DNA of 64,000 nucleotides, taken from contig NZ_CP109328.1 of assembly GCF_035918155.1 (NCBI RefSeq), forward strand, positions 992,001-1,056,000, read 5' to 3'. Shown here piece after piece: positions 24,191 to 39,175 of the stretch. The DNA is from Streptomyces sp. NBC_01591 (GTDB lineage Bacteria > Actinomycetota > Actinomycetes > Streptomycetales > Streptomycetaceae). The notes under the pieces are model-generated. The model searched no databases. It was not told the origin of the DNA and was given only the letters and a program-made list of their open reading frames with translations. A program made the translations under genes and the position numbers. The stretch's first letter is position 1. Every line of letters starts with the position of its first letter.

Positions 24191-24401
24191 GTTCCCGCGG
24201 TCGGAAGCGAGCGGCGCCGGCGCCGATGAGGGGCAGGGCCTGGACCGGATCGCGGCGGCGATGTCGTGCGCGCGGTCGGCTGGTGCAGCGGTCGGCGCCG
24301 CCCGCGTGACGGCGACGGAAAGGAGGGCGCACAGGAGGTTCCGGGGGCGTACGGCGGCTGGCACGGGTCCTGCATCGGAGAGTACTCCACCCATAACAGA
24401 T

Positions 24402-24420
24402 GACAATGAAAACGATTATC
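24402..24420. promoter_or_regulatory. Fur-family (Fur/Zur-like) box upstream of the metallophore-type operon
   Basis: GACAATGAAAACGATTATC is a 19-bp imperfect palindrome with arms GACAAT/ATTATC. It has the size and arm sequence of a classical Fur-family box (GATAAT...ATTATC). It is strikingly AT-rich for this DNA and ends 92 bp before the first start codon of the operon. It does not resemble the TTAGGTTAGGCTAACC-type DmdR/IdeR iron box. The metal (Fe, Zn, Ni or other) cannot be decided from sequence. Confidence 0.6.
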
Positions 24421-24512
24421 GATAAGGTCTCCTCGGTCAATCGAGCGCGCCCTGCCGGTGTCGCCACTGTGACCGGAACACGCCTCAATCCGCGCCGTGA
24501 GAAAGGGAATTC

Positions 24513-25769
24513 GTGGCTCATCTGCTGATGGTCGAGAGCTGGGTCGGGTCCATGGGCAGACTGCTGCCAAGAGCCATTCGCGAGGCAGGTCACGAGTTCA
24601 CCTTCCTGACCCGTGACCTGCACCACTACCTGCGCTCCGCTCCGGAGGGCACCGCGCACCCCCTCCTCGCAGCCCGCCATGTGCTCACCACGAACACCAA
24701 CGACACCGACGCACTGCTGCCCTTCGTCGAGCGCACCCACGACGTCCTGCGCTTCGACGGAGTGATCACTTCCTGCGACTACTACCTCCGGACGGCTGCG
24801 CAGATCTCGGGGCGCCTTGGGCTGCCCGGCCCCACGCCCGAGGCGGTCGAGAACGCGTGCCGCAAGGACTCGACCCGCCGAGTCCTGGCCGAGACCGGTT
24901 TACCGGGACCTCGGTTCGCTGTGTGCGCGGACTGGGCCGAGGCCGCCGCAGCGGCCCACGACATCGGCTACCCGCTGGTACTCAAACCCGTGGACCTGTG
25001 CGCCGGGATGTTCGTACGCCGCGCCGACGACGAGGCCGCCCTGGCTCACGCCTACCGCGCGCTCGCCGCCTTCCCCGTCAACGCCCGCGGACAGCGCCGC
25101 GACCCTGTAGTGCTGCTCGAAGAACTCCTCGAGGGCCCGGAAGTAAGCATCGAGACCGTGTCCCACGGCGGAGCCGTGCACGTCATCGGCGTCACCGACA
25201 AAAGCGTCGGCGGAGCCCCTGCGTTCGTCGAGACCGGCCACATGTTCCCCGCCGTCCTGGACCCGGCGGACACCGAGGCCGCCGAAGAGACCGCGCGCCG
25301 GGCGCTCAAGGCCCTCGGTCTCGACCAGGTCGTCGCCCACACCGAGATCAAGCTGACGGCCGACGGGCCACGCCTCGTCGAGGTCAACCCCCGGCCCGCC
25401 GGCAACCGCATCACCGAGCTCGTACGTCACGTGACCGGCATCGACCTCGCCGCCGCCTGCGTGGACGTCGCCCTCGGCCGCGCGCCGGACCTCCGCCGCC
25501 GTGCCACCGGACTGACCAGCGCCGCCATCGGCTTCCTGGTACCCGACCAGGACGGCGTACTGGAGACCGTCGACGGCGCCGACACCGTCCGCGCGGCCGA
25601 CGGCCTGCTGGAACTCCAGCTCGCCGACCCCGGCAAGGCCGTCAAAGCCGCCGGCAGCAACAACGAGTACCTCGGCCACGTCATGGCCGGTGACGCCCAG
25701 GGCCCCGCCGCCCGGACACGCGTCGAAACCCTCCTCGCGCAGCTGCGTCCCCGGGTGGTGACCCGATGA
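24513..25769 (+). CDS. ATP-grasp ligase (operon gene 1)
   Basis: 418 residues from GTG 24513 (GAAAGGGA five bases upstream). An N-terminal preATP-grasp fold (about 1-110) is followed by ATP-grasp: GYPLVLKPVDLCAGMFV with Lys158, VVLLEELLEGPEVSIETV, and the metal-binding EIKLTADGPRLVEVNPRPAG with Glu290 and Asn292. Relatives are carboxylate-amine ligases of the L-amino-acid ligase / carnosine-synthase kind, which form amide bonds through an acyl phosphate. It probably joins two amino-acid-like units of the product. Leu130 is encoded by TTA (24900-24902), the rare codon needing bldA tRNA. The stop overlaps the next start by 4 bp. Confidence 0.85.
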   Translation: MAHLLMVESWVGSMGRLLPRAIREAGHEFTFLTRDLHHYLRSAPEGTAHPLLAARHVLTTNTNDTDALLPFVERTHDVLRFDGVITSCDYYLRTAAQISGRLGLPGPTPEAVENACRKDSTRRVLAETGLPGPRFAVCADWAEAAAAAHDIGYPLVLKPVDLCAGMFVRRADDEAALAHAYRALAAFPVNARGQRRDPVVLLEELLEGPEVSIETVSHGGAVHVIGVTDKSVGGAPAFVETGHMFPAVLDPADTEAAEETARRALKALGLDQVVAHTEIKLTADGPRLVEVNPRPAGNRITELVRHVTGIDLAAACVDVALGRAPDLRRRATGLTSAAIGFLVPDQDGVLETVDGADTVRAADGLLELQLADPGKAVKAAGSNNEYLGHVMAGDAQGPAARTRVETLLAQLRPRVVTR

Positions 25770-26599
25770 CCGCCCCCACCGGCATACGCGCCGCAGCCGC
25801 CTCGTACGACGACCTCGTCCAGCTGGTGCTGGCCGGCCGCATCGGCCCCGATCCGCGCACCCAGCGAATCGCGGTCGCCTTCACCACCCGACAGGCGGTA
25901 CGACACGAAGGACGCGGCTCCGGCTACCGGAACGAAGTGCTGAGCCTGCGCCTGGCCGAAGTCGTCGGGTCCTGTGCGGTCGAGCCGGGCGAGCTGCCCG
26001 ACGGCGCCGTCGAGGAATGCGTCGGCGCGGACATCGCCCGCCTCGTCGAACACGAACTGCCCCCGGTCCGGGTCGCCGCCCTCGACGCGTACCTCATGCA
26101 CGCCCTGCCGCACAGCCCCGGGAACGGCGCACGGCCCTGCCCGCTGACCGCCGGAACGTCGCTGGAGAAGTCCAGGGCCAGGGCCAAGGCCGTGGTGGAC
26201 CTCATCGACGCCTCCCCCGGAGCGACCGTGCTCGTGGTGGGAGTGGTGAACTCGCTGCTGGAGGCCCTGCGGGCACGCGGCCTCGCGTACATCCCCTGCG
26301 ACCTCAAGGGCGGCACGACCGAATGGGGCGAAGCGGTACGCACCAACTCCCTGGCGGAGCTGGAGCGCTGCGACGCGATCCTCGCCTCCGGCATGACCCT
26401 CGGCAACGGCAGCTTCGAGCCACTGCGCCGGCACGCACAGCGCCACGGCACACCTCTGGTGATGTTCGCGCAGACCGGCAGTGCGGTCCTGCCGCGCCTG
26501 ATCGGCTCCGGCGTCACCGCGGTGTGTGCGGAGCCGTACCCCTTCTTCTGGCTGGACGGCGGCCCGGGGACCATCCACCGCTACGGAGACGCCCGATGA
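25766..26599 (+). CDS. DUF364-like Rossmann protein, putative heavy-metal chelation family (operon gene 2)
   Basis: 277 residues. The N-terminal ~110 residues (IAVAFTTRQAVRHEGRGSGY) resemble the DUF4213 domain. The C-terminal part (ATVLVVGVVNSLLEALRARG, YIPCDLKGGTTEWGEAVRTN, ILASGMTLGNGSFEPLRRHA, PLVMFAQTGSAVLPRLIGSG) resembles DUF364, annotated as putative heavy-metal chelation. A family structure is known to combine an enolase-N-like and a Rossmann-like domain; no reaction has been established. Start and stop overlap its neighbours (ATGA at both), so it is made in step with the ligase and PLP enzyme. It could bind the metal or the product, or act as an enzyme. Confidence 0.72.
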   Translation: MTAPTGIRAAAASYDDLVQLVLAGRIGPDPRTQRIAVAFTTRQAVRHEGRGSGYRNEVLSLRLAEVVGSCAVEPGELPDGAVEECVGADIARLVEHELPPVRVAALDAYLMHALPHSPGNGARPCPLTAGTSLEKSRARAKAVVDLIDASPGATVLVVGVVNSLLEALRARGLAYIPCDLKGGTTEWGEAVRTNSLAELERCDAILASGMTLGNGSFEPLRRHAQRHGTPLVMFAQTGSAVLPRLIGSGVTAVCAEPYPFFWLDGGPGTIHRYGDAR

Positions 26600-27687
26600 C
26601 CACGATCCTCCTCGGCTCCGCACGCGCCACGGGCAACCGGGAGCTCCTCGGCCTGCTCGGCCGCACCCCTCTCGCCCGCGTCACGGTCGACCTGCCCTGC
26701 CCGCAGCCGGGCTTCTGGGCCAAGCTGGAAGGACTCGGCGTCGGCGGCATGAAGGCCCGTGCCGCCGTCTCCATGTTGCTGGGCGCCCAGGAACGCGGCG
26801 AACTGCGGCCGGGCGCGCCCGTGGTGGAGTCCACCTCCGGGACGCTCGGCATCGGACTGGCCTTCGCCGGACAGGCCCTCGGCCACCCGGTCGTGCTGGT
26901 CGGCGACAGCGAGCTGGAACACTCGATGCGCCAGCTGCTCCGCGCGCACGGTGTCCACCTAGAACTCGTCGACCGCCCGGCGGCCGAGGGCGGCTGGCAG
27001 GCCGCCCGGCTCGCCCGGCTGCGCCAACTGCTCACCCTGCTGCCCGACGCTTACTGGCCCGACCAGTACAACAACCCGGACAACACGGCGGGTTACGCCT
27101 CACTCGCGGCTGAGCTGGCCACCCAGCTCGATCACCTCGACGTGCTGGTCTGCAGTGTCGGAACCGGCGGCCACAGCGCCGGCATCACCGGACCGCTGCG
27201 ACGCCACTGGCCCCGCCTGCGGCTCATCGGCGTGGACGCCACCGGCTCCACCATCTTCGGACAGCCTGCCAGGCCCCGCCTCATGCGCGGCCTCGGCAGC
27301 AGCATCCACCCGCGCAACGTCACCTACGACGCCTTCGACGAGGTCCACTGGGTCGGCCCCGCCGAGGCCGCCGACGCCTGCCGCCGACTGGCCCGCGGTG
27401 CCTTCGTCAGCGGCGGCTGGAGCACCGGCGCCGTCGCCCTCGTCGCCGCCTGGGCCGCCCGCGTCCACCCCGGCGCGGTCGTCGCCACCGTCTTCCCCGA
27501 CGGACCGCACCGCTACCTCGGCAGCGTCTTCGACGACGACTTCACCACCACCCACGGCATCGCCCCCGCCACCGCCGCCACCCGCCCCGTCGAGATCTCA
27601 CACCCCAAGGCCGTGGAAGCCACCGGCTGGGCCCGCTGCCGCACCGTCACCGATCCGCTCGCCACTCCCCAGGAAGAGAAGCCGTGA
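26596..27687 (+). CDS. PLP-dependent cysteine-synthase-like enzyme (operon gene 3)
   Basis: 363 residues. Fold type II PLP enzyme. Lys53 in GVGGMKARAAVSML is the expected Schiff-base lysine; VESTSGTLGIGLAFAG replaces the usual PTSGNTGIGLA, so the Asn that contacts the PLP oxygen in classical CysK is absent; SVGTGGHSAGITGPL is the phosphate-binding loop. Such divergent CysK/CysM relatives often make beta-substituted alanines (for example 2,3-diaminopropionate precursors) from O-acetyl- or O-phosphoserine. Here it likely supplies an unusual amino-acid building block. The longer open frame from 26017 overlaps gene 2 and is not the start; ATG 26596 overlaps the preceding stop. Confidence 0.85.
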   Translation: MTTILLGSARATGNRELLGLLGRTPLARVTVDLPCPQPGFWAKLEGLGVGGMKARAAVSMLLGAQERGELRPGAPVVESTSGTLGIGLAFAGQALGHPVVLVGDSELEHSMRQLLRAHGVHLELVDRPAAEGGWQAARLARLRQLLTLLPDAYWPDQYNNPDNTAGYASLAAELATQLDHLDVLVCSVGTGGHSAGITGPLRRHWPRLRLIGVDATGSTIFGQPARPRLMRGLGSSIHPRNVTYDAFDEVHWVGPAEAADACRRLARGAFVSGGWSTGAVALVAAWAARVHPGAVVATVFPDGPHRYLGSVFDDDFTTTHGIAPATAATRPVEISHPKAVEATGWARCRTVTDPLATPQEEKP

Positions 27688-28739
27688 AGGCCGGCCTGCG
27701 CACCGTACGCCTCGACCTCGCCGAGCCGCTGCGCATCTCCCGCTCCACGATGGCGGCCCGCGAGGCCGTGTGGCTGACCATCGAGCACGAAGGGCAGCAT
27801 GGCCACGGCGAGGCCGTCACCAGCGTGTACTACGGACTCGACGCCAACGCCCTCGGACGGCTGCTGCACACGCAATCCCAGTGGCTGGCCGGGTTCACCG
27901 ATCCCGAGACCGCCCTGGAAGACTTCCGGGTTGGTGCCGGACACGCCGCCCCGCCGGCTGTGACCGCCGCCGTAGAGTCCGCGCTGCTCGACCTCGTCGG
28001 CAAGCGCGCAAGCGTCCCGGTCCACCAGCTCCTGTGCGCCCGAGGTGCCCCGCCCCGTGCCGCGACCGCCCGCACCATCGGCATCACCGCACCGGAGCGA
28101 GCCCAGGCGCAGGCGGCCCGCCTCGTACGCGACGGATTCTCGGTCCTCAAACTCAAGGCCGGCGCTCCGGACGCGGCCGAAGACCTGGCCCGTGTGCGGG
28201 CCGTCCGCACCGCCGCCCCCCACGTCCGGCTGCTTCTCGACCCCAACGGAGCATGGACCGTCCAGGAGTCCGAGCGACTGCTCCCACTCTTCGCGGAACT
28301 GGGCGTCGAAGCTGTCGAGCAGCCATTGGCGCCCGGCGATCCCGAGGCACTGGCGAAGCTCGCGGAGCGCTCGCCGCTTCCCGTCATCGCGGACGAGGAC
28401 GCGGTCGACCTGGAGGACGCCCGCCGCCTCGCCGGGAGGGTTCAAGGCATCAACGTCAAGCTGGCCAAGTGCGGCGGCGTCAGCGCCGCCCTGCGCATCG
28501 CCGAACTGGTCGCGGGCACCGGAACCGAGCTGATGCTCGGCTGCCTGACCGCCAGCACCCTTGGCATCGCCCCCGCTGTCCACCTCGCCGACCGCGCCCG
28601 CTGGGTCGACCTCGACGGCCACCTGTTGCTCGCCGACGACCCGTGGACGGGCATCGGCGGTACCGACGGCACCGTACGGGCGAGCCGGGACCCGGGCCTG
28701 GGCATACGCGAGCGCGGCGCCGAGGAGGCCGCGGCATGA
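27684..28739 (+). CDS. Enolase-superfamily dipeptide-epimerase-like enzyme (operon gene 4)
   Basis: 351 residues from GTG 27684 (overlapping the previous stop). Muconate-lactonizing subgroup: Lys156-x-Lys158 in VLKLKAG, metal ligands Asp186 (LLLDPNGAW), Glu212 (VEQPL) and Asp237 (IADEDAVD), and the opposite-face lysines Lys259 and Lys262 in INVKLAKCGG. This residue set is that of L-Ala-D/L-Glu-type dipeptide epimerases and OSBS/NAAAR enzymes. In this operon, epimerisation of a dipeptide or N-acyl amino acid made by the ATP-grasp ligase is the simplest reading; the substrate is unknown. Confidence 0.85.
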   Translation: MKAGLRTVRLDLAEPLRISRSTMAAREAVWLTIEHEGQHGHGEAVTSVYYGLDANALGRLLHTQSQWLAGFTDPETALEDFRVGAGHAAPPAVTAAVESALLDLVGKRASVPVHQLLCARGAPPRAATARTIGITAPERAQAQAARLVRDGFSVLKLKAGAPDAAEDLARVRAVRTAAPHVRLLLDPNGAWTVQESERLLPLFAELGVEAVEQPLAPGDPEALAKLAERSPLPVIADEDAVDLEDARRLAGRVQGINVKLAKCGGVSAALRIAELVAGTGTELMLGCLTASTLGIAPAVHLADRARWVDLDGHLLLADDPWTGIGGTDGTVRASRDPGLGIRERGAEEAAA

Positions 28740-29995
28740 AGACATGGCACGAGATACGCAGCTTCCCGCTCGCGATCCGGCTCCTCCTGGTCAACCAGCT
28801 CGGCGTCAACACCGGCTTCTACCTGCTCGTCCCGTACCTCGCCCTGCACCTGAGCGAGGACCTGGGGATGTCTGCGGCCGTCGTCGGCATCGTGCTCGGC
28901 GTGCGCAACCTCAGCCAGCAAGGGCTGTTCCTCATCGGCGGGACGGCGTCGGACCGGCTCGGAGCACGCGGCGTCATCATCGCCGGATGCGCCCTGCGCA
29001 CCGTCGGCTTCGGACTGTTCGCACTCGGCGACGGACTGCCCGTGCTCCTCGCCGCGTCCGTGCTCAGCGGTCTGGCCGGCGCCCTTTTCAATCCGGCGGT
29101 ACGGGCCTATCTCGCCCTGGAAGCAGAGGAGCGCAAGGCGGAGGCGTTCGCCCTGTTCAACGTCTTCGCCACCATTGGCGCCCTGATCGGACCACTGCTC
29201 GGCAGTGCACTGCTGCTGGTCGACTTCCGTGTCTCCGCACTCACCGCGGCCGGGATCTTCGCGGTGCTCACCGCCGCCCAGGCCCTGGTGCTGCCGGCCC
29301 GCCAGGTCGCTCCGACTGGCAGCACCGTCGTCGCCGACTGGCGCGAGGTGATCGGCAACCGAGGTTTCCTCGCCTTCGCCCTGGCCATGGTCGGCATGTT
29401 CACGCTGGAGAACCAGCTGTACCTGCTGCTGCCCGACGGGGCCCGGCGGGCCACCGGCTGGGAAGGCGCCGCCGGGCTTGTCTTCCTCATCGGCACGCTC
29501 GCCAACCTCTGGCTCCAGTTGCGCATCACCACCGCGCTGAAGAAGCGGGGCAGCAGGGCGCGCTGGATCAGCGCCGGACTCGTGCTGATGGGACTGTCCT
29601 TCGTACCGCCGATGGCGATGTCGGGGCACGACAACACCCCTGACGATCTCGCAGACGCGGTGCTGCGCGCGCTGCCCGTCCTGGCCGGTGCCCTGCTGCT
29701 CCACCTGGGCGTGATGCTGGCCCAGCCGTTCGTGATGGAACTGGTCCCCGGCTTCGGCCGAGCCGAACTCACCGGCACCTGCTTCGGCCTGTTCTACATG
29801 GTCTCCGGCATCGCCGCCGCCGTCGGCAACACGGTCGTCGGCTGGGCCATGGACACCGGTGAACGCACCGACACGCCGTGGCTGCCGTGGGCGTGCTGCC
29901 TGGCCTTCGGACTCTCCTCCGCCGCCGGTGTCGCCTGGCTGCACCGCCGCCGGGTCCTTCCGGCCCGCCCCACGTCCGTTCCGGCGACAGCATGA
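28736..29995 (+). CDS. MFS exporter (operon gene 5)
   Basis: 419 residues, about 12 membrane helices. Starts MKTWHEIRSFPLAIRLLLVN; the loop after TM2 has the motif-A-like GGTASDRLGARGVIIAG; AELTGTCFGLFYMVSGIAAA lies in the C-terminal half. It resembles MdtH/YceL-like drug exporters. Start overlaps the upstream stop by 4 bp. Set between biosynthetic genes and an importer, it is the likely route by which the product leaves the cell, as for many siderophores. Confidence 0.88.
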   Translation: MKTWHEIRSFPLAIRLLLVNQLGVNTGFYLLVPYLALHLSEDLGMSAAVVGIVLGVRNLSQQGLFLIGGTASDRLGARGVIIAGCALRTVGFGLFALGDGLPVLLAASVLSGLAGALFNPAVRAYLALEAEERKAEAFALFNVFATIGALIGPLLGSALLLVDFRVSALTAAGIFAVLTAAQALVLPARQVAPTGSTVVADWREVIGNRGFLAFALAMVGMFTLENQLYLLLPDGARRATGWEGAAGLVFLIGTLANLWLQLRITTALKKRGSRARWISAGLVLMGLSFVPPMAMSGHDNTPDDLADAVLRALPVLAGALLLHLGVMLAQPFVMELVPGFGRAELTGTCFGLFYMVSGIAAAVGNTVVGWAMDTGERTDTPWLPWACCLAFGLSSAAGVAWLHRRRVLPARPTSVPATA

Positions 29996-30009
29996 GGAGC
30001 ACGCCACCC

Positions 30010-30816
30010 ATGACCGCCACCACTGCGAACCTGCTCACCGACAACCCCGCGCTGTACGAGACCTGCTTCCCCGACCCCGAACGGCTCGCCGGACGCTGGG
30101 CCGAGGACTGCCTGCGCCGGTACGGGCCGCCCGGCCCACGCGTCCTGGACATCGGCTGCGGCACCGGCCGCGACGCCGCCCACCTGCACCGCGCAGGGCG
30201 TACGGTCACCGGCGCCGACCTGTCCGACGCGATGCTGGAGTACGCCCGCGTCCGGCACCCCGGTCCGGCATACGTCCGGGCCGACCTGCACGGCTTCGAC
30301 TTCGAAGAACACTCCTTCGACGCCATCGTGTGCCTCGACAGCGCCCTGCTGTACTGCCACACCAACGACCAGCTCGACAGGTTCCTGGCATCCTGCCGCC
30401 GCACACTGATGCCTGGCGGACTGCTCGTCGCGGAAATGCGCAACGGCGCCTTCTTCCTCGGCCGCACGGAACTCCTCGACGCTCCGTCCACCAACGGTTT
30501 CACCTGGCGGGGAACCGCCTACCGCTCCACCACCACCCTGACCGTGGACAGGACCGCCCAGCTGCTGCGCCGCACACGGGTGTGGACCGCCGACGACGGC
30601 ACCGCGCCGGTCGAGCAGCGCTCCGCGTGGCGCCTGCTCTTCCCCCAGGAGCTGCGCCATGTCCTGGCCGCCCACGGCTTCGAGGTGCTCGCCCTGTACG
30701 ACGGGCCGGGCCCGCGCACCGAACCACCGTGGCAGGAGGGCGACCTGCCCGCCGCGACAGCCGACGCAGATCGGCTGCATCTGGTCGCCCGCCTCATCCC
30801 AGCACCCCGCCCCTGA
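30010..30816 (+). CDS. Class I SAM-dependent methyltransferase (operon gene 6)
   Basis: 268 residues from ATG 30010 with GAGGAG ten bases upstream, 14 bp after the MFS stop. Motif I is RVLDIGCGTGRDAAHL (Asp47, Gly49-x-Gly51), then DLSDAMLEYARVRHPG and DAIVCLDSALLYCHTNDQLD; the C-terminal part carries a beta-rich insertion (TLTVDRTAQLLRRTRVWTAD). It fits small-molecule methyltransferases and would tailor the product (N-, O- or S-methylation cannot be distinguished). No close sequence clue to substrate. Confidence 0.85.
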   Translation: MTATTANLLTDNPALYETCFPDPERLAGRWAEDCLRRYGPPGPRVLDIGCGTGRDAAHLHRAGRTVTGADLSDAMLEYARVRHPGPAYVRADLHGFDFEEHSFDAIVCLDSALLYCHTNDQLDRFLASCRRTLMPGGLLVAEMRNGAFFLGRTELLDAPSTNGFTWRGTAYRSTTTLTVDRTAQLLRRTRVWTADDGTAPVEQRSAWRLLFPQELRHVLAAHGFEVLALYDGPGPRTEPPWQEGDLPAATADADRLHLVARLIPAPRP

Positions 30817-30861
30817 ACCCCTCCGCTTCCATCCGCCCGTACAGCAGCAAGGAACACCCCC

Positions 30862-32448
30862 ATGAACGACACCTCTGTGAACGACCCGCGCTTCCCCGGT
30901 CTGCGCCGCCGAGGCGTCCTCGCGGCAGGTGCCGTCGGTCTCGGCGCCCTCGCCGTCACCGGCTGCGCCGGCACCGGACCGGCCGCCGACACCTCCAAGG
31001 CCGACGGCAAGCCCCGGCGCGGCGGACGGCTGCGCGCCGCGTTCGCCGGCGGCGGCGCGAGCGAGACGCTCGACCCGCACCTTGCCAACCTCTTCGCGGA
31101 CGTGGCCCGCGCCAAGGCCCTCTTCGACAAGCTCGCCGACTACGGCCCCAACCTGTCCGCCCAGCCGCGGCTCGCCGCGACGTGGGAACCGAGCGCCGGC
31201 CTGAACCGCTGGAAGGTCACGCTGCGCAAGGCCGGTTTCCACAACAGCAAGCCGGTCACCGCCAAGGACGTCCTGTACAGCTATCGGCGCATCACCGATC
31301 CGAAGCAGGCGTTCCGCGCGAAGGCGTCCCTGGAACCCATCGACCTCGATGCGAGCCGTGCGCTGGACGACCGGACCGTCGAGTTCGTCCTCAAGCGCCC
31401 GACCGCCGAGTTCCCCAACGTGCTCGCCGCGTTCGGCGCGTACATCGTGCCCGAGGGCGAGCAGGACTTCGACAACGAGCCGGTGGGCAGCGGCCCCTTC
31501 CGCTTCGTCTCCTTCGCCCCTGGCAAGTCCGCGGTCTTCCGGCGCAACGAGGACTACTGGGACGGCGCCCCCTTTCTGGACGAGCTGGAGTTCATCGTCG
31601 CCAACGAGGAGTCCGCCCGCGTCAACGCCCTCCTCGGCGGCCAGATCGAATACGCCCACGAGCTCAACCCCACCACCGCCCGCGCCCACGAAGGCAAGGG
31701 CCGGATCGAGATCATCCGGCTCCGCAACAGCGCCATGCAGTCCTTCGCGATGAAGACCGACCGCCCTCCCTTCGACGACAAGCGCGTACGGGAGGCGTTC
31801 TTCCTGATCGCCGACCGGAAGGAGCTGGTCGACGGCGCCCTGTCCGGCGCCGGCGAGATCGGCAACGATCTGTTCGGCAAGGGCTACGAGTACTACGCCG
31901 CGAGTCTGCCCCAGAGGGAACAGGACCTCGACCGGGCCAAGGCACTGCTCAAGCAGGCCGGCGCCGAGGATCTCAAGGTCACCCTCGACACCTCGCCCGT
32001 CGCCGCTGGATTCGCCGAAGCCGCCACCATCTTCCGCGACCAGGCCGCCCGAGCGGGTGTGACCATCACCGTCAGGACCGGCAGCAAGGACAGCTACTGG
32101 AAGGACATCCTCGAATCCGGAACCCTTTGCTCCTACCGCTCCGGCGCCATGCCCATCGAGACCCACATCTCCCAGCGCCTGCTCACAGGTTCCACCACCA
32201 ACGCCACCAAGTGGCAGCACAAGGACTTCGACGCCCTCTACCAGCAGGCACAGTCCACCAAGAACAAGACCGCCCGCGCCGCAGTCCACGAGCGCATGCA
32301 GCGCCGCCTGTACGCCGAAGGCGGCTTCCTGGTCTGGGGCTTCGCCGACTGGATCCTCGGCACCGCCCGCAACGTCCGCGGCGTCGAGACCAAGGCACCG
32401 GCCAACTCCCTCGACTGGGCGCGCTTCGACAAGGTGTGGCTCGCGTGA
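30862..32448 (+). CDS. ABC transporter substrate-binding lipoprotein, peptide/nickel type (operon gene 7)
   Basis: 528 residues. Signal peptide with twin arginines (LRRRGVLAAGAVGLGALAVT) ending in lipobox VTGC (Cys35), suggesting a Tat-exported lipoprotein. Mature part is a family-5 solute-binding protein (GGRLRAAFAGGGASETLDPH, PVTAKDVLYSYRRITDP, DFDNEPVGSGPFRFVSF, NEDYWDGAPFLDELEF), the OppA/DppA/NikA fold. NikA-type members bind metal complexes of small chelators, which suits recapture of a metal-loaded product. A 45-bp gap before it is the largest in the operon and could hold a second promoter. Confidence 0.92.
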   Translation: MNDTSVNDPRFPGLRRRGVLAAGAVGLGALAVTGCAGTGPAADTSKADGKPRRGGRLRAAFAGGGASETLDPHLANLFADVARAKALFDKLADYGPNLSAQPRLAATWEPSAGLNRWKVTLRKAGFHNSKPVTAKDVLYSYRRITDPKQAFRAKASLEPIDLDASRALDDRTVEFVLKRPTAEFPNVLAAFGAYIVPEGEQDFDNEPVGSGPFRFVSFAPGKSAVFRRNEDYWDGAPFLDELEFIVANEESARVNALLGGQIEYAHELNPTTARAHEGKGRIEIIRLRNSAMQSFAMKTDRPPFDDKRVREAFFLIADRKELVDGALSGAGEIGNDLFGKGYEYYAASLPQREQDLDRAKALLKQAGAEDLKVTLDTSPVAAGFAEAATIFRDQAARAGVTITVRTGSKDSYWKDILESGTLCSYRSGAMPIETHISQRLLTGSTTNATKWQHKDFDALYQQAQSTKNKTARAAVHERMQRRLYAEGGFLVWGFADWILGTARNVRGVETKAPANSLDWARFDKVWLA

Positions 32449-33398
32449 CCGGACTCCGGCCCTGGATCGCCCGGCGGCTCCTGCTCGGTGCGGCACAGAC
32501 GGCAGCCGTCGTGCTGCTCGTCTTCGCCCTCACCGAGGCGCTGCCGGGCGACGCCGCCGTCGCCCTCGCTGGCGACCAGCCCGACCCGGAGCGCATCACC
32601 GCCATCCGCGAGGCGATGGACCTCGACCGGCCCGCACACGAACGCCTGGCGGACTGGGCGGCCGGGCTGCTGCACGGGGACTTCGGCACCTCCCTGGCCT
32701 CCGGTCGCCCCGTCAGCACGTACATCGCCGAAGGCTTCGGGCCGACACTGCTGCTCGCCGCCCTGACGGTCGCGCTCCTCATCCCCGTCGGTGTCGGCCT
32801 CGGTGTCCTCTCCGCCCGCCACGAGGGCCGATTCGCGGACCGGCTGATCAGCTCGGTGACGCTCGGCGCCTACGCCGTACCCGAGTTCGCCTTCGGCATA
32901 CTGCTGGTCACCGTCTTCGCCCTGCGCCTGGGGTGGCTCCCGCCGACCGCCGTCGGCTACGGCACCGACCTCCTGGCCCACCCCGCCGCGCTGGTGCTGC
33001 CCGTGCTCGTCCTGCTCTCCCGCCCCGTCTGCTCCCTGGCCCGACTCGTACGCGCCGGCATGATCGACGCACTGGCTTCGCCCTACGCGGCACACGCCCA
33101 CCGCTACCGCGTTCCGGGCGTCCGCATCCGCTACGGACACGCTCTTCCCAACGCCATCGCGCCCGCCACCCAGCAACTCGCCCGCACCATCGACTGGTTG
33201 CTGTGCGGCGTCATCGTCGTGGAAGCGATGTATGTGATCCCCGGCCTCGGCACCGTCCTGATGAACGCCGTCGCCGAGCGGGACGTACCGGTCGTCCAGG
33301 GCCTCGCCGTCGTCTTCGGCATCACCACCGTCCTCCTCAACCTCGGCGCCGATCTGGTCACGCGCCGCTTCGCCCCGCGGACGGAGGTGGCCGCATGA
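32445..33398 (+). CDS. ABC transporter permease 1, DppB/NikB type (operon gene 8)
   Basis: 317 residues from GTG 32445, overlapping the preceding stop. Six membrane segments. The N-terminal TM1 and long extracytoplasmic loop (DAAVALAGDQPDPERITAIR, DFGTSLASGRPVSTYIAEGF) and the BPD signature RYRVPGVRIRYGHALPNAIA are those of Opp/Dpp B-subunits. It pairs with permease 2 to form the channel. Confidence 0.92.
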   Translation: MTGLRPWIARRLLLGAAQTAAVVLLVFALTEALPGDAAVALAGDQPDPERITAIREAMDLDRPAHERLADWAAGLLHGDFGTSLASGRPVSTYIAEGFGPTLLLAALTVALLIPVGVGLGVLSARHEGRFADRLISSVTLGAYAVPEFAFGILLVTVFALRLGWLPPTAVGYGTDLLAHPAALVLPVLVLLSRPVCSLARLVRAGMIDALASPYAAHAHRYRVPGVRIRYGHALPNAIAPATQQLARTIDWLLCGVIVVEAMYVIPGLGTVLMNAVAERDVPVVQGLAVVFGITTVLLNLGADLVTRRFAPRTEVAA

Positions 33399-34177
33399 AG
33401 TCCCGTTTCGCACTCGGCGTCGTCGTCGGCGTTCCTCTCGCCCTGGCCCTCCTCGGACCGCTGTTCACGGGCGGCCCGGGGCCCCGGGCCGCTTCGTTCA
33501 CGCTCGGCGGCGGACACTGGCTCGGGACCGACTTCGTCGGCCGGGACGTCTGGCGCCAGGTGCTGCTCGGGGGACGTTCCGTGGTGGTCGTGGCGCTGGC
33601 CGCGACCACCCTGGCCTACCTCGTGGCGGTCCCCATCGGCCTCGCCGGCGCGCTCACCCACCGCGCCTGGCTGGAAGAGCTTGCCATGCGGCCGCTGGAT
33701 GTGCTGCTCGCCGTGCCGTCACTGCTGATGATCCTGCTCGTCTCCGCCGTCTTCACGCCCGGTGCCGTCGGTCTCGCCATGCTGGTGGCGCTCGTCAACA
33801 TCCCCGACGCCGCCCGGATCGTACGGGCCGCGGCGGCCGAGGCCGCATCGCGTCCGGCGGTCGAAGCACTGCGGATGCAGGGCGAGACGTGGTGGCGCAC
33901 GGCCGTCGGCTACGTCGGCCGGTCCCTCACGCGTACGCTCGCCGCCGACGCCGGCGTACGGCTGACCGGTGTGCTGTACCTCGTCGCCACCGCGGCGTTT
34001 CTCGGCGTCGGCGTCGAGCCGGACGCGGCCGACTGGGCGGTGATGGTGGACCGAAACCGCACCGGACTGTACGTCCAGCCCTGGGCCGTGGTCGTGCCCG
34101 CGCTGCTCATCGTCGGCCTCACCATGGGGACCAATCTGCTCGTCGACGCCCAACTGGAGAAGAGGAAGCGGAAGTGA
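33395..34177 (+). CDS. ABC transporter permease 2, DppC/NikC type (operon gene 9)
   Basis: 260 residues from ATG 33395 (ATGA overlap). GGGHWLGTDFVGRDVWRQVL is the diagnostic DppC/OppC motif; RPLDVLLAVPSLLMILLVSA and a divergent EAA loop (EAASRPAVEALRMQGETWWR) follow. Slightly shorter than typical C-subunits. About five to six membrane helices. Ends next to the ATPase gene with a 4-bp GTGA overlap. Confidence 0.92.
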   Translation: MKSRFALGVVVGVPLALALLGPLFTGGPGPRAASFTLGGGHWLGTDFVGRDVWRQVLLGGRSVVVVALAATTLAYLVAVPIGLAGALTHRAWLEELAMRPLDVLLAVPSLLMILLVSAVFTPGAVGLAMLVALVNIPDAARIVRAAAAEAASRPAVEALRMQGETWWRTAVGYVGRSLTRTLAADAGVRLTGVLYLVATAAFLGVGVEPDAADWAVMVDRNRTGLYVQPWAVVVPALLIVGLTMGTNLLVDAQLEKRKRK

Positions 34178-35709
34178 ACGCCGACAACGCCGTGAACGCG
34201 GTCGCGGAGATCGAGAACCTGCGCGTGGAGGTCGGCGGCCGGGCCATCGTCGACGGCGTCGATCTGCGGGTGCTCCCCAGCACGATCACCGCCCTCGTAG
34301 GCGCGTCCGGCAGCGGCAAGACAACCACAGGCCTCGCCCTGCTCGGGGAGTACCCTGCCGGCGCACGCGTGACCGGCAGCGTACGAGTACCCGACGGCCT
34401 GGTCGGATACATCCCGCAGCACCCGAGCGCCGTCCTCAATCCCGCCCGCCGCATCAATGCCCTGCTTTCCGACATCGCCCGCACGCAGATACGGCACCTG
34501 CCACGGCAAGGCCGCCGAGCCGCTATCCGCAAGCGCGTCCTGCGCGCCCTGTCACTGGCCCAGATACCCGACGCCGAGGCGATGCTGGGCCGCTACCCCC
34601 ACCAGTTGTCGGGCGGCCAACAGCAGCGCGTCGTCCTCGCACAGGCACTACTGCTCGGAGCCAGGGTGGTGGTGGCCGACGAGCCGACCACCGGCCAGGA
34701 CGCGCTGACGAAACGAAACATCGTCGACCAGCTCGCCGCCGTGGCCCAGGAAGGAATCGCCGTCGTCCTGCTCAGCCATGACCTCGATGTCGTACGCGCA
34801 CTTGCCGACGAGGTTCTGGTCATGCGTGACGGGCACGTGGTCGAGTCCGCGCCGGCCGAGCGCCTGTGGCTCACCCCACGGCACCCCTGGACAGCCGAAC
34901 TCCTGGCATCCGGAACCACCACCGGACCCATCGAACCAGCATCCGAAGGAGACACGGTCCTCCAGACCGGGCCCCTCACCGCCCACCACGGCCGAACGGC
35001 AGTACTCCGCACGCCCGGGCTCACCCTACGCACCGGCGAATGCCTGGCCGTTGTCGGCCGCTCGGGCAGCGGAAAGACCACCCTCGCCCGCTGCCTGGCC
35101 GGCCTGCACCGGAACCACGACGGCGAGATCCGTCTCAACGGCACCCCGCTTCCGCGCAGCCTCAGGGACCGCACGCGCGAGCAGCTCGCCGCGGTCCAGT
35201 ACGTCTTCCAGGACGCCAGGGCGGCGTTCGACGAACACCGCCAGGTCCTCCACCAGGTAGCCCGAACGGCGGTGCGGCTGCGCGGGACGGTCGAGGAGGA
35301 TGCCCTGGCCGAAGCACTCACCACTCTCGTCGGCCTCGGCCTGACCGAGGACCTCGTACACCGTCGCCCTGGCCGACTGTCCGGCGGCGAACTCCAGCGC
35401 GCCGCGCTGGCCCGCGCCCTGCTGGCCCGGCCACGCGTGCTGATCTGCGACGAGATCACCTCAGGCCTCGACACCGTCACCCGGCAGAGCATCCTCGACA
35501 CGCTCACCGGACTCGTGTATGGCCGAGGCGACCTGTCTCTGATGCTGGTCACGCACGACCTCACCACAGCTGCCCTGGCCACCCGTATCGCCGTCCTGGA
35601 GGCCGGCCACCTCGTCGAAGAGGGACCGGCACAGCAGCTCCTCACCACGCCGCAGCACCCGTCCAGCGTGCGGCTGTTGGAGACCGCCGGGGCCAGGATC
35701 GATCCATGA
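34174..35709 (+). CDS. Fused double ABC ATPase, DppD-DppF type (operon gene 10)
   Basis: 511 residues from GTG 34174. Two complete nucleotide-binding domains in tandem. NBD1: Walker A GASGSGKTT, signature LSGGQQQR, Walker B VVVADEPTTG, H-loop LLSHDLD. NBD2: Walker A GRSGSGKTT, YVFQDARAAF, signature LSGGELQR, Walker B VLICDEITSG, H-loop LVTHDLT. The second Walker B has Glu-Ile in place of Glu-Pro, a conservative variation. One polypeptide replaces the separate D and F subunits. Last gene of the operon. Confidence 0.93.
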   Translation: MNADNAVNAVAEIENLRVEVGGRAIVDGVDLRVLPSTITALVGASGSGKTTTGLALLGEYPAGARVTGSVRVPDGLVGYIPQHPSAVLNPARRINALLSDIARTQIRHLPRQGRRAAIRKRVLRALSLAQIPDAEAMLGRYPHQLSGGQQQRVVLAQALLLGARVVVADEPTTGQDALTKRNIVDQLAAVAQEGIAVVLLSHDLDVVRALADEVLVMRDGHVVESAPAERLWLTPRHPWTAELLASGTTTGPIEPASEGDTVLQTGPLTAHHGRTAVLRTPGLTLRTGECLAVVGRSGSGKTTLARCLAGLHRNHDGEIRLNGTPLPRSLRDRTREQLAAVQYVFQDARAAFDEHRQVLHQVARTAVRLRGTVEEDALAEALTTLVGLGLTEDLVHRRPGRLSGGELQRAALARALLARPRVLICDEITSGLDTVTRQSILDTLTGLVYGRGDLSLMLVTHDLTTAALATRIAVLEAGHLVEEGPAQQLLTTPQHPSSVRLLETAGARIDP

Positions 35710-38077: not shown

Positions 38078-39175
38078 GTGCTGCTGCGACTGGCCTACTT
38101 GAGCATGGCGAACGCGTTCGCCATGCTGCGCCTGCTACCGATGAGCGATCGGGACAAGGACGTGGAGATCCTCGCCCTGCGCCACCAACTGTCGGTGCTG
38201 GAGCGCCAACTCGGTAAGGAGAAGGTGCGGTTCAGCCCGAGCGACCGGGCGTTCCTGGCGGCGCTGCTGCACCGGCTGCCGCGGGACGTGCTGCGCAGGC
38301 TGCGGCTGCTGGTCCGGCCGGACACGGTGCTACGTTGGCACCGCGACCTGGTCGCCCGCCGCCACGCCGCCGAGTCCAAGCCGAAGCGCCCGGGTCGGCC
38401 CCGCACCGTGCGCTCCATCCGTGCCCTGGTGCTGCGCCTGGCACGGGAAAATCCCACGTGGGGCTACCGGCGCCTCCACGGCGAGCTGCTGGTGCTGGGC
38501 GTGACGGTGGCCCCCTCCACGGTCTGGGAGATCCTGCGGGAGGCCGGGATCGATCCGTCACCCCAACGGAGCTCAAGTACGTGGGCGGGCTTCCTGCGCT
38601 CGCAGGCCGACGCCCTGCTGGCGTGCGATTTCTTCGAGACGGTCACCTTGTCCGGGGCACGGATGTACGTGCTCGCAGTGATCGAGCACGGCAGTCGGCG
38701 GATCCGGATTCTGGGCGCCACGGCACACCCGACCGCCGCCTGGGTGGCGCAGGCCGCGAAGAATCTCGTCATGGACCTGGAGGACGCACGCTGCCGGGCG
38801 CGGTTCTTGATCCGGGACCGGGACGGGAAGTTCCCCGCCTTGTTCGACGCGATCCTCGCCGATGCGGGCATCGAGGTTGTGCTCAGCGGCGTCCGGATGC
38901 CGAGAACGAACTCGATTATGGAGAGGTGGGTGCAGACCTGCCGGCGCGAGCTGCTGGACCGCACGTTGATCTGGAATCAGCGGCATCTGCTCCACGCCTT
39001 GCGCGCGTTCGAACAGTTCTACAACTCCCATCGGCCGCATCAGGGCATCGCGAATGCCCGCCCGCTGTATCCATTGCCCACGCCGATCACTGATCCGGAC
39101 GAGATCGCCCGCCTCGACATACACCGCTGCGATCGCCTCGGCGGCATTCTCCACGAGTACCGACATGCCGCATGA
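38078..39175 (+). CDS. Integrase-core (IS3/IS481-like) transposase
   Basis: 365 residues from GTG 38078. N-terminal HTH/helical region (DKDVEILALRHQLSVLERQL), HTH_21-like ENPTWGYRRLHGELLVLG, then a retroviral-type core: LLACDFFETV (Asp), RFLIRDRDGKF (Asp) and MPRTNSIMERWVQTCRRELL (Glu). The C-terminus has FEQFYNSHRPHQGI. The full D-D-E set is intact. I did not find convincing terminal repeats, so element limits are left open. Confidence 0.88.
   Translation: MLLRLAYLSMANAFAMLRLLPMSDRDKDVEILALRHQLSVLERQLGKEKVRFSPSDRAFLAALLHRLPRDVLRRLRLLVRPDTVLRWHRDLVARRHAAESKPKRPGRPRTVRSIRALVLRLARENPTWGYRRLHGELLVLGVTVAPSTVWEILREAGIDPSPQRSSSTWAGFLRSQADALLACDFFETVTLSGARMYVLAVIEHGSRRIRILGATAHPTAAWVAQAAKNLVMDLEDARCRARFLIRDRDGKFPALFDAILADAGIEVVLSGVRMPRTNSIMERWVQTCRRELLDRTLIWNQRHLLHALRAFEQFYNSHRPHQGIANARPLYPLPTPITDPDEIARLDIHRCDRLGGILHEYRHAA

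Follow-up and report, generated by a model that had tools for sequence, protein, structure and literature searches.

To our knowledge, zinc metallophores (zincophores) are few and mostly of the non-ribosomal peptide synthetase (NRPS) or opine type. [S,S]-Ethylenediaminedisuccinic acid (EDDS) is made without an NRPS, uses an SbnA-like enzyme, and is placed among the “aminopolycarboxylic acid metallophores” of antiSMASH 7; its core gene set consists of SbnA-like, SbnB-like, and lyase-like genes. Staphylopine and pseudopaline (the Cnt systems) are small amino-acid-derived chelators served by an exporter and a NikA/Opp-type importer. The class just named is listed for antiSMASH 7 (PMC10320115), and EDDS is reported to be a Zur-controlled zincophore of Amycolatopsis japonicum (PMC6103462, PMC9252823). 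In Streptomyces coelicolor, zinc-bound Zur is described as repressing the zincophore cluster for coelibactin (PMC5472717), a putative non-ribosomal peptide (PMC3430247). In Staphylococcus aureus, SbnA of the staphyloferrin B pathway is reported to couple O-phosphoserine with glutamate, with Arg132, Tyr152, and Ser185 selecting O-phosphoserine (PMC12414870). Here we analyze a 64,000-nucleotide stretch of Streptomyces sp. NBC_01591 (contig NZ_CP109328.1, positions 992,001 to 1,056,000; hereafter “the window”) that carries an operon of ten genes, A to J. The best explanation of this operon, and probably the right one, is that it encodes a zincophore system repressed by Zur.

Pfam results for the ten genes separate the operon from each of the described systems. 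With staphyloferrin B it shares an enzyme, C, that is nearest to SbnA and keeps the equivalents of Arg132 and Tyr152, but it lacks both SbnB (ornithine cyclodeaminase family) and an IucA/IucC synthetase. Neither an OCD_Mu_crystall nor an argininosuccinate-lyase domain was found among the ten, which leaves the EDDS core set incomplete, and the operon differs further from EDDS in its ligase, DUF364, epimerase, and methyltransferase genes. The predicted small amino-acid-derived chelator, exporter, and NikA/Opp-type importer recall the Cnt systems, but no nicotianamine-synthase-like or opine dehydrogenase domain occurs among the ten genes. Zinc control through Zur, here predicted from a promoter box, is a likeness to coelibactin, but the ten genes contain no NRPS adenylation or condensation modules. 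The make-export-re-import logic appears to resemble that of the EDDS and staphylopine systems, yet the operon belongs with neither because their defining genes are absent. We found no description of the operon in the open-licence literature searched.

The window features that concern us are the following.

24401..24426, + strand: predicted Zur-type box with conserved surround; core 15-mer TGAAAACGATTATCG at 24407-24421, ~106 bp 5' of gene A
24513..25769, + strand: gene A, ATP-grasp L-amino-acid ligase-like protein (Pfam ATP-grasp_4 and LAL_C2)
25766..26599, + strand: gene B, DUF364 protein, predicted enzyme (Pfam PF04016)
26596..27687, + strand: gene C, SbnA-like fold-type II pyridoxal phosphate (PLP) enzyme (TIGR03945 235.8 bits vs cysKM 155.8)
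27684..28739, + strand: gene D, dipeptide epimerase-like enzyme of the enolase superfamily (nearest solved chain 3jva)
28736..29995, + strand: gene E, major facilitator superfamily (MFS) transporter, probable exporter (MFS_1 107 bits)
29992..30816 (start 29992 or 30010), + strand: gene F, S-adenosylmethionine-dependent methyltransferase (Methyltransf_25 80.5 bits)
30862..32448, + strand: gene G, family-5 solute-binding protein of NikA/Opp type (SBP_bac_5 258.7 bits)
32445..33398, + strand: gene H, ATP-binding cassette (ABC) permease (BPD_transp_1 85.3 bits)
33395..34177, + strand: gene I, ABC permease (BPD_transp_1 60.1 bits)
34174..35709, + strand: gene J, fused double ABC ATPase of NikD plus NikE type (two ABC_tran stretches, 169.4 bits)

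The genes run co-directionally over 24513-35709, downstream of a Fur-family palindrome, and eight of the nine junctions are 4-bp overlaps, with a single gap of 45 bp between F and G. The original prediction, a note made from the letters of this DNA, had described just such a ten-gene operon with mostly 4-bp overlaps, and we confirm it. Its importer is indeed of the NikABCDE type but comprises four genes rather than five, because the NikD- and NikE-like halves are fused in J.

The operon is conserved as one unit. A DUF364-gene scan with one genome per species gave 309 relatives, of which the best 80 loci, hence the closer relatives, were kept (78 carry Streptomyces in their title, with one Wenjunlia and one “Actinobacteria bacterium” besides). 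A-J are complete, in order, and on a single strand in 69 of these 80; the locus of S. anulatus NRRL B-2873 (L089) is one with all ten. Where enough flanking DNA was available (> 1,500 bases before and > 10,300 beyond the DUF364 start; true of 65 among the 80 loci), all ten genes are present at 64 loci, the exception being L105, and five of the 15 loci below the threshold still show all ten. A further 20 loci from the genus hold the full set in 17 cases (several matches at L053 are short). At ≥ 65% identity, an identical set of 15 out of 61 genus genomes carries both the DUF364 and the ATP-grasp genes. The ATP-grasp gene match at G054:C1:8429453-8430692 is split in two pieces. When five window genes outside the operon were compared with the 80 loci, four were unmatched and one MFS gene was matched at five loci. 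Across 396 genomes sampled from the phylum, matches to the DUF364 alignment came from six genomes of the genus (the source genome included, and two DUF364 families together), plus one weak match elsewhere.

The palindrome upstream of gene A recurs with the operon: a match of at least 12 of 14 positions lies within 300 bp 5' of gene A at 78 of the 79 assessable loci (11 of 14 at L130). We built a matrix from 76 of the 80 loci, which contain 12 distinct 15-mers, leaving out L116 (gene A at the contig end), L130 (weak), and L113 and L122 (boxes at -165 and -255). Applied to a test set of 30 of the ZnuA loci from 41 genomes, this operon-box matrix scores at least 17 upstream of 29 of the 30 Streptomyces znuA loci, as against 0 of 419 control windows from the same loci (maximum 15.7); the sole znuA-type locus without a matrix-scored box is L182. 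In the source genome itself, nine hits over the two strands, at seven places, have at most two mismatches to TGAAAATNATTWTCA; two of these places are the operon box and the znuA start, and no hit arises with the reversed control pattern. The box also agrees at 9 of 11 defined positions with the S. coelicolor Zur motif tGaNNatSatNNtCa, which is of the 7-1-7 type (PMC5472717). Because the matrix is shared with znuA, the 7-1-7 Zur motif is similar, and boxes for iron or nickel regulators are unsupported or weak (see below), our preferred reading of the palindrome is a predicted Zur (zinc) box. The Fur-type palindrome of the original prediction therefore stands as a Fur-family box at 24407-24421, with zinc in place of iron as the indicated metal.

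For C, the NCBIfam SbnA model TIGR03945 exceeds the cysteine synthase model cysKM by 80 bits, and the nearest solved chain in the Protein Data Bank is SbnA itself. Of the three SbnA residues that select O-phosphoserine, two are kept (Arg132 as R138 and Tyr152 as Y158), and K53, R138, Q157, and Y158 are invariant across 15 aligned rows (the window, 8 of 20 loci of the first DUF364 family, to which B belongs, and 6 of 18 of the second). C probably carries out a beta-substitution on O-phosphoserine. What had been called a CysK-like enzyme is SbnA-like, nearer to SbnA than to ordinary CysK. As C is nearest to SbnA, the chemistry does not lie wholly outside the known classes, and the claim that the system fits none of them holds only in part, O-phosphoserine-based beta-substitution being probably common with staphyloferrin B; the Pfam results do bear out the stated absence of NRPS, NRPS-independent siderophore synthetase, and opine dehydrogenase. 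No SbnB-like gene is found by Pfam among the ten, and although the genome has five OCD_Mu_crystall matches, on the operon's replicon the closest of them lies ~600 kb away (C2:414786).

The remaining enzymes are consistent with the modification of a dipeptide-like product. For A, the nearest solved chain is the L-amino acid ligase BL00235 (3vot), followed by BacD. For D, it is the Dipeptide Epimerase 3jva, and the NCBIfam relatives are L-Ala-D/L-Glu epimerases and DgcA. Dipeptide epimerases are marked by a KxK motif and a third Lys, three acidic metal ligands, and a C-terminal DxD; D keeps all of these lysines, metal ligands, and the DxD (K156, K158, D186, E212, D237, K259, D309, and D311, each ≥ 98% conserved over 74 rows, after removal of rows with < 85% coverage or a stop), consistent with 3jva. 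The residues of C and D fit active enzymes. A methylated, epimerized pseudo-dipeptide, as originally proposed, would agree with the families of A, D, and F, the product itself being a prediction from those families. The genome has a single PF04016 match, B, which passes the Pfam cut-off; its predicted model fits the two-domain fold of the solved DUF364 proteins Dhaf4260 (3l5o) and PH1506 (3npg), at an identity of only 14%. A further alignment of 38 rows covered the window, 32 of 38 fetched loci, and five homologues. DUF364 proteins were suggested in 2010 to act in the synthesis of flavins, pterins, or siderophore-like chelators (PMC2954201), and we found no later resolution of that proposal in the literature searched. 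A Serratia DUF364 protein is reported to have raised prodigiosin production (PMC4046660), a role not obviously linked to metals. Among the transporters, the best NCBIfam matches are MdtH for E (168.9 bits, below its cut-off of 469) and Opp5A_nikA for G (138 bits, below its cut-off of 600), nickel_nikD and nickel_nikE are among the best for J, and the CntA, CntC, CntD, and CntF models match G, I, and J below the cut-offs of these four models.

A second type of cluster with the same pair of core genes lends further weight to the zincophore reading. With families assigned by E-value across 392 genus genomes, the best DUF364 match belongs to the first family in 99 (about a quarter), to a second family ~40% identical to B in 70, and to others in 3. 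All 18 fetched second-family loci (L062-L079) carry a PLP gene 26-33% identical to C, and both of the encoded enzymes tested are nearest to SbnA. The first and second families coexist in no more than 5 of the 392 genomes, where 18.9 would be expected (Fisher p = 6.6e-6), a pattern that alternative systems for one need would produce. A site scoring ~17 or more with the operon-box matrix was found in 16 of these 18 loci in a whole-locus scan. Of three loci inspected in more detail, L070 has a methyltransferase, a GHMP kinase, a FecCD permease, an ATPase, and Peripla_BP_2; L062 has an MFS gene and a CobW GTPase; L066 has a Nik-type importer, and at L064-L066 the importer genes are 44-51% identical to G-J. 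At L070, the GHMP kinase gene is adjacent to the PLP gene, and its product could supply an O-phospho-amino acid as substrate. The CobW-family GTPase lies at L062:13981-15270, beside the second-type cluster; genes of this family are often linked to zinc shortage. A possible counterpart of the second family in S. coelicolor is the SCO0472-SCO0476 region. We favor a metallophore because of the conserved unit, the box shared with znuA, and this second family, which pairs DUF364 with an SbnA-like enzyme and mostly has a box of like kind; the original prediction of a metallophore system is therefore the best-supported reading, with zinc as the predicted metal and a predicted product.

Several observations weigh against a Zur-repressed zincophore system. 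Zur binding is predicted, and the box alone is no proof of it. The strict S. coelicolor motif occurs at ten places in the source genome, none of them at the operon or znuA (eight are copies of two terminal-repeat sites), and the looser pattern and the matrix were used for this reason. The five places matching TGAAAATNATTWTCA apart from the operon and znuA are not zinc genes as far as seen: four are terminal-repeat copies of one site within a coding frame, and the fifth lies where a regulator-like frame begins. Among 1500 dinucleotide shuffles of the znuA regions (half of them wrongly oriented), the 99% level was 14.1 and the maximum 22.7; chance can yield lone sites near 19, and the weight rests on recurrence. 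No box is present at L065 and L066 in the DNA examined, the operon start being near or past the end of that DNA. C scores below the curated TIGR03945 cut-off (235.8 vs 349.95 bits), i.e., it is SbnA-like rather than an SbnA equivalog, and Ser185 of SbnA is replaced by Gly189, as in the SbnA variant 5d87. L105 is without importer genes H-J, and three of the 20 further genus loci are without the importer (L052 and L060 hold A-D, and L058 holds A-E). Since two of these, L058 and L060, belong to the more divergent loci, the importer may not be part of every version of the operon, and NikA-like proteins also take up peptides and other metals. Finally, the figure for the rare coexistence of the two families ignores phylogeny, and descent could also give that pattern.

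Four other explanations deserve comparison. A broad-spectrum metallophore, with zinc as only the signal and nickel, cobalt, or copper taken up as the chelate, is unlikely though conceivable: the importer is nearest to NikA-E/Opp type models, and staphylopine is reported to contribute to broad-spectrum metal uptake (PMC5719457), but the box is of the znuA type. The Nur (nickel) box, which we tried 5' of gene A with a consensus string, was rejected as weak (0.60 of positions vs 0.53 in the control), and the match before gene A, at 8 of 12, is not above the coding control maximum. An iron-regulated siderophore operon, which the Fur-type palindrome of the original prediction might suggest, we regard as very improbable. 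The 15-mer does match the Fur family's general 7-1-7 pattern, but iron regulation in Streptomyces runs mainly via DmdR, and a candidate DmdR box (likewise from a consensus string) was discarded when its best match 5' of gene A averaged 0.51 of positions over 77 regions versus 0.50 in the coding control.

The ligase and the epimerase raise two further options. That the operon makes a secreted zinc-chelating antibiotic or antimetabolite dipeptide, with the ABC system serving recycling or self-protection, would suit the kinship of A to the dipeptide ligases BacD and BL00235, the dipeptide epimerase-like D, and the MFS protein E; it is improbable given that no resistance- or target-like gene is found among the ten, the importer is retained in 64 of the 65 assessable loci, and the box is of the znuA type. 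Scavenging, in which exogenous cell-wall-like dipeptides are imported and remodeled and no chelator is made, could draw on the relation of D to L-Ala-D/L-Glu epimerases and DgcA and on the frequent uptake of peptides by family-5 importers; we find it hardly credible, as it leaves the ATP-grasp ligase, the SbnA-like synthase, the MFS protein, and the box unexplained.

If the operon does encode a Zur-repressed zincophore system, it might work as follows. Under zinc shortage, Zur would leave the box at 24407-24421, and A-J would be transcribed together. C would couple the O-phosphoserine carbon skeleton with nitrogen from a second amino acid (for SbnA, glutamate), giving an ethylenediamine-type aminocarboxylate; as SbnB is not encoded in the operon, this core would presumably be kept rather than cleaved to diaminopropionate. 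B may modify or condense the core, A would ligate it to another amino acid, D would epimerize the dipeptide-like product, and F may methylate it. E would export the chelator, G would bind the metal complex, and H-I-J would import it. The order of steps, the substrates, the product, the direction of transport, and the metal are all inferred.

We also entertain, without favoring it, a stronger proposal: that the operon represents a new class of zincophore, an ATP-grasp-ligated, epimerized aminocarboxylate pseudo-dipeptide on an uncleaved phosphoserine-derived core, with DUF364 carrying out a biosynthetic step so far known from no enzyme, and that some four in ten Streptomyces species rely on one of two alternative DUF364/SbnA-like systems for zinc uptake. 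Confirmation of the DUF364 step and of the epimerized pseudo-dipeptide would make the operon a new class rather than a variant. If true, such systems (99 + 70 of 392 genomes) would be one of the commoner metal-scavenging strategies of the genus. The operon is a compact, widely conserved, NRPS-free zincophore candidate in easily handled Streptomyces, and it makes two questions directly testable, namely, the reaction of DUF364 and the means other than ZnuABC by which Streptomyces obtains zinc. Aminocarboxylate chelators such as EDDS are of interest as biodegradable replacements for ethylenediaminetetraacetic acid (PMC9252823).

Downstream of the operon, an integrase/transposase-like open frame (window 38078-39175) is unmatched at the 80 loci. 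The window corresponds to C2:992001-1056000, and pattern sites from the genome scan at C1:65162, 179168, 8627125, and 8741127 are mirrored at C2:65159, 179167, 1093548, and 1207552. This recurrence at mirrored positions suggests that C1 and C2 share long terminal inverted repeats of at least ~180 kb, which would place the operon on a linear replicon of 1.27 Mb.

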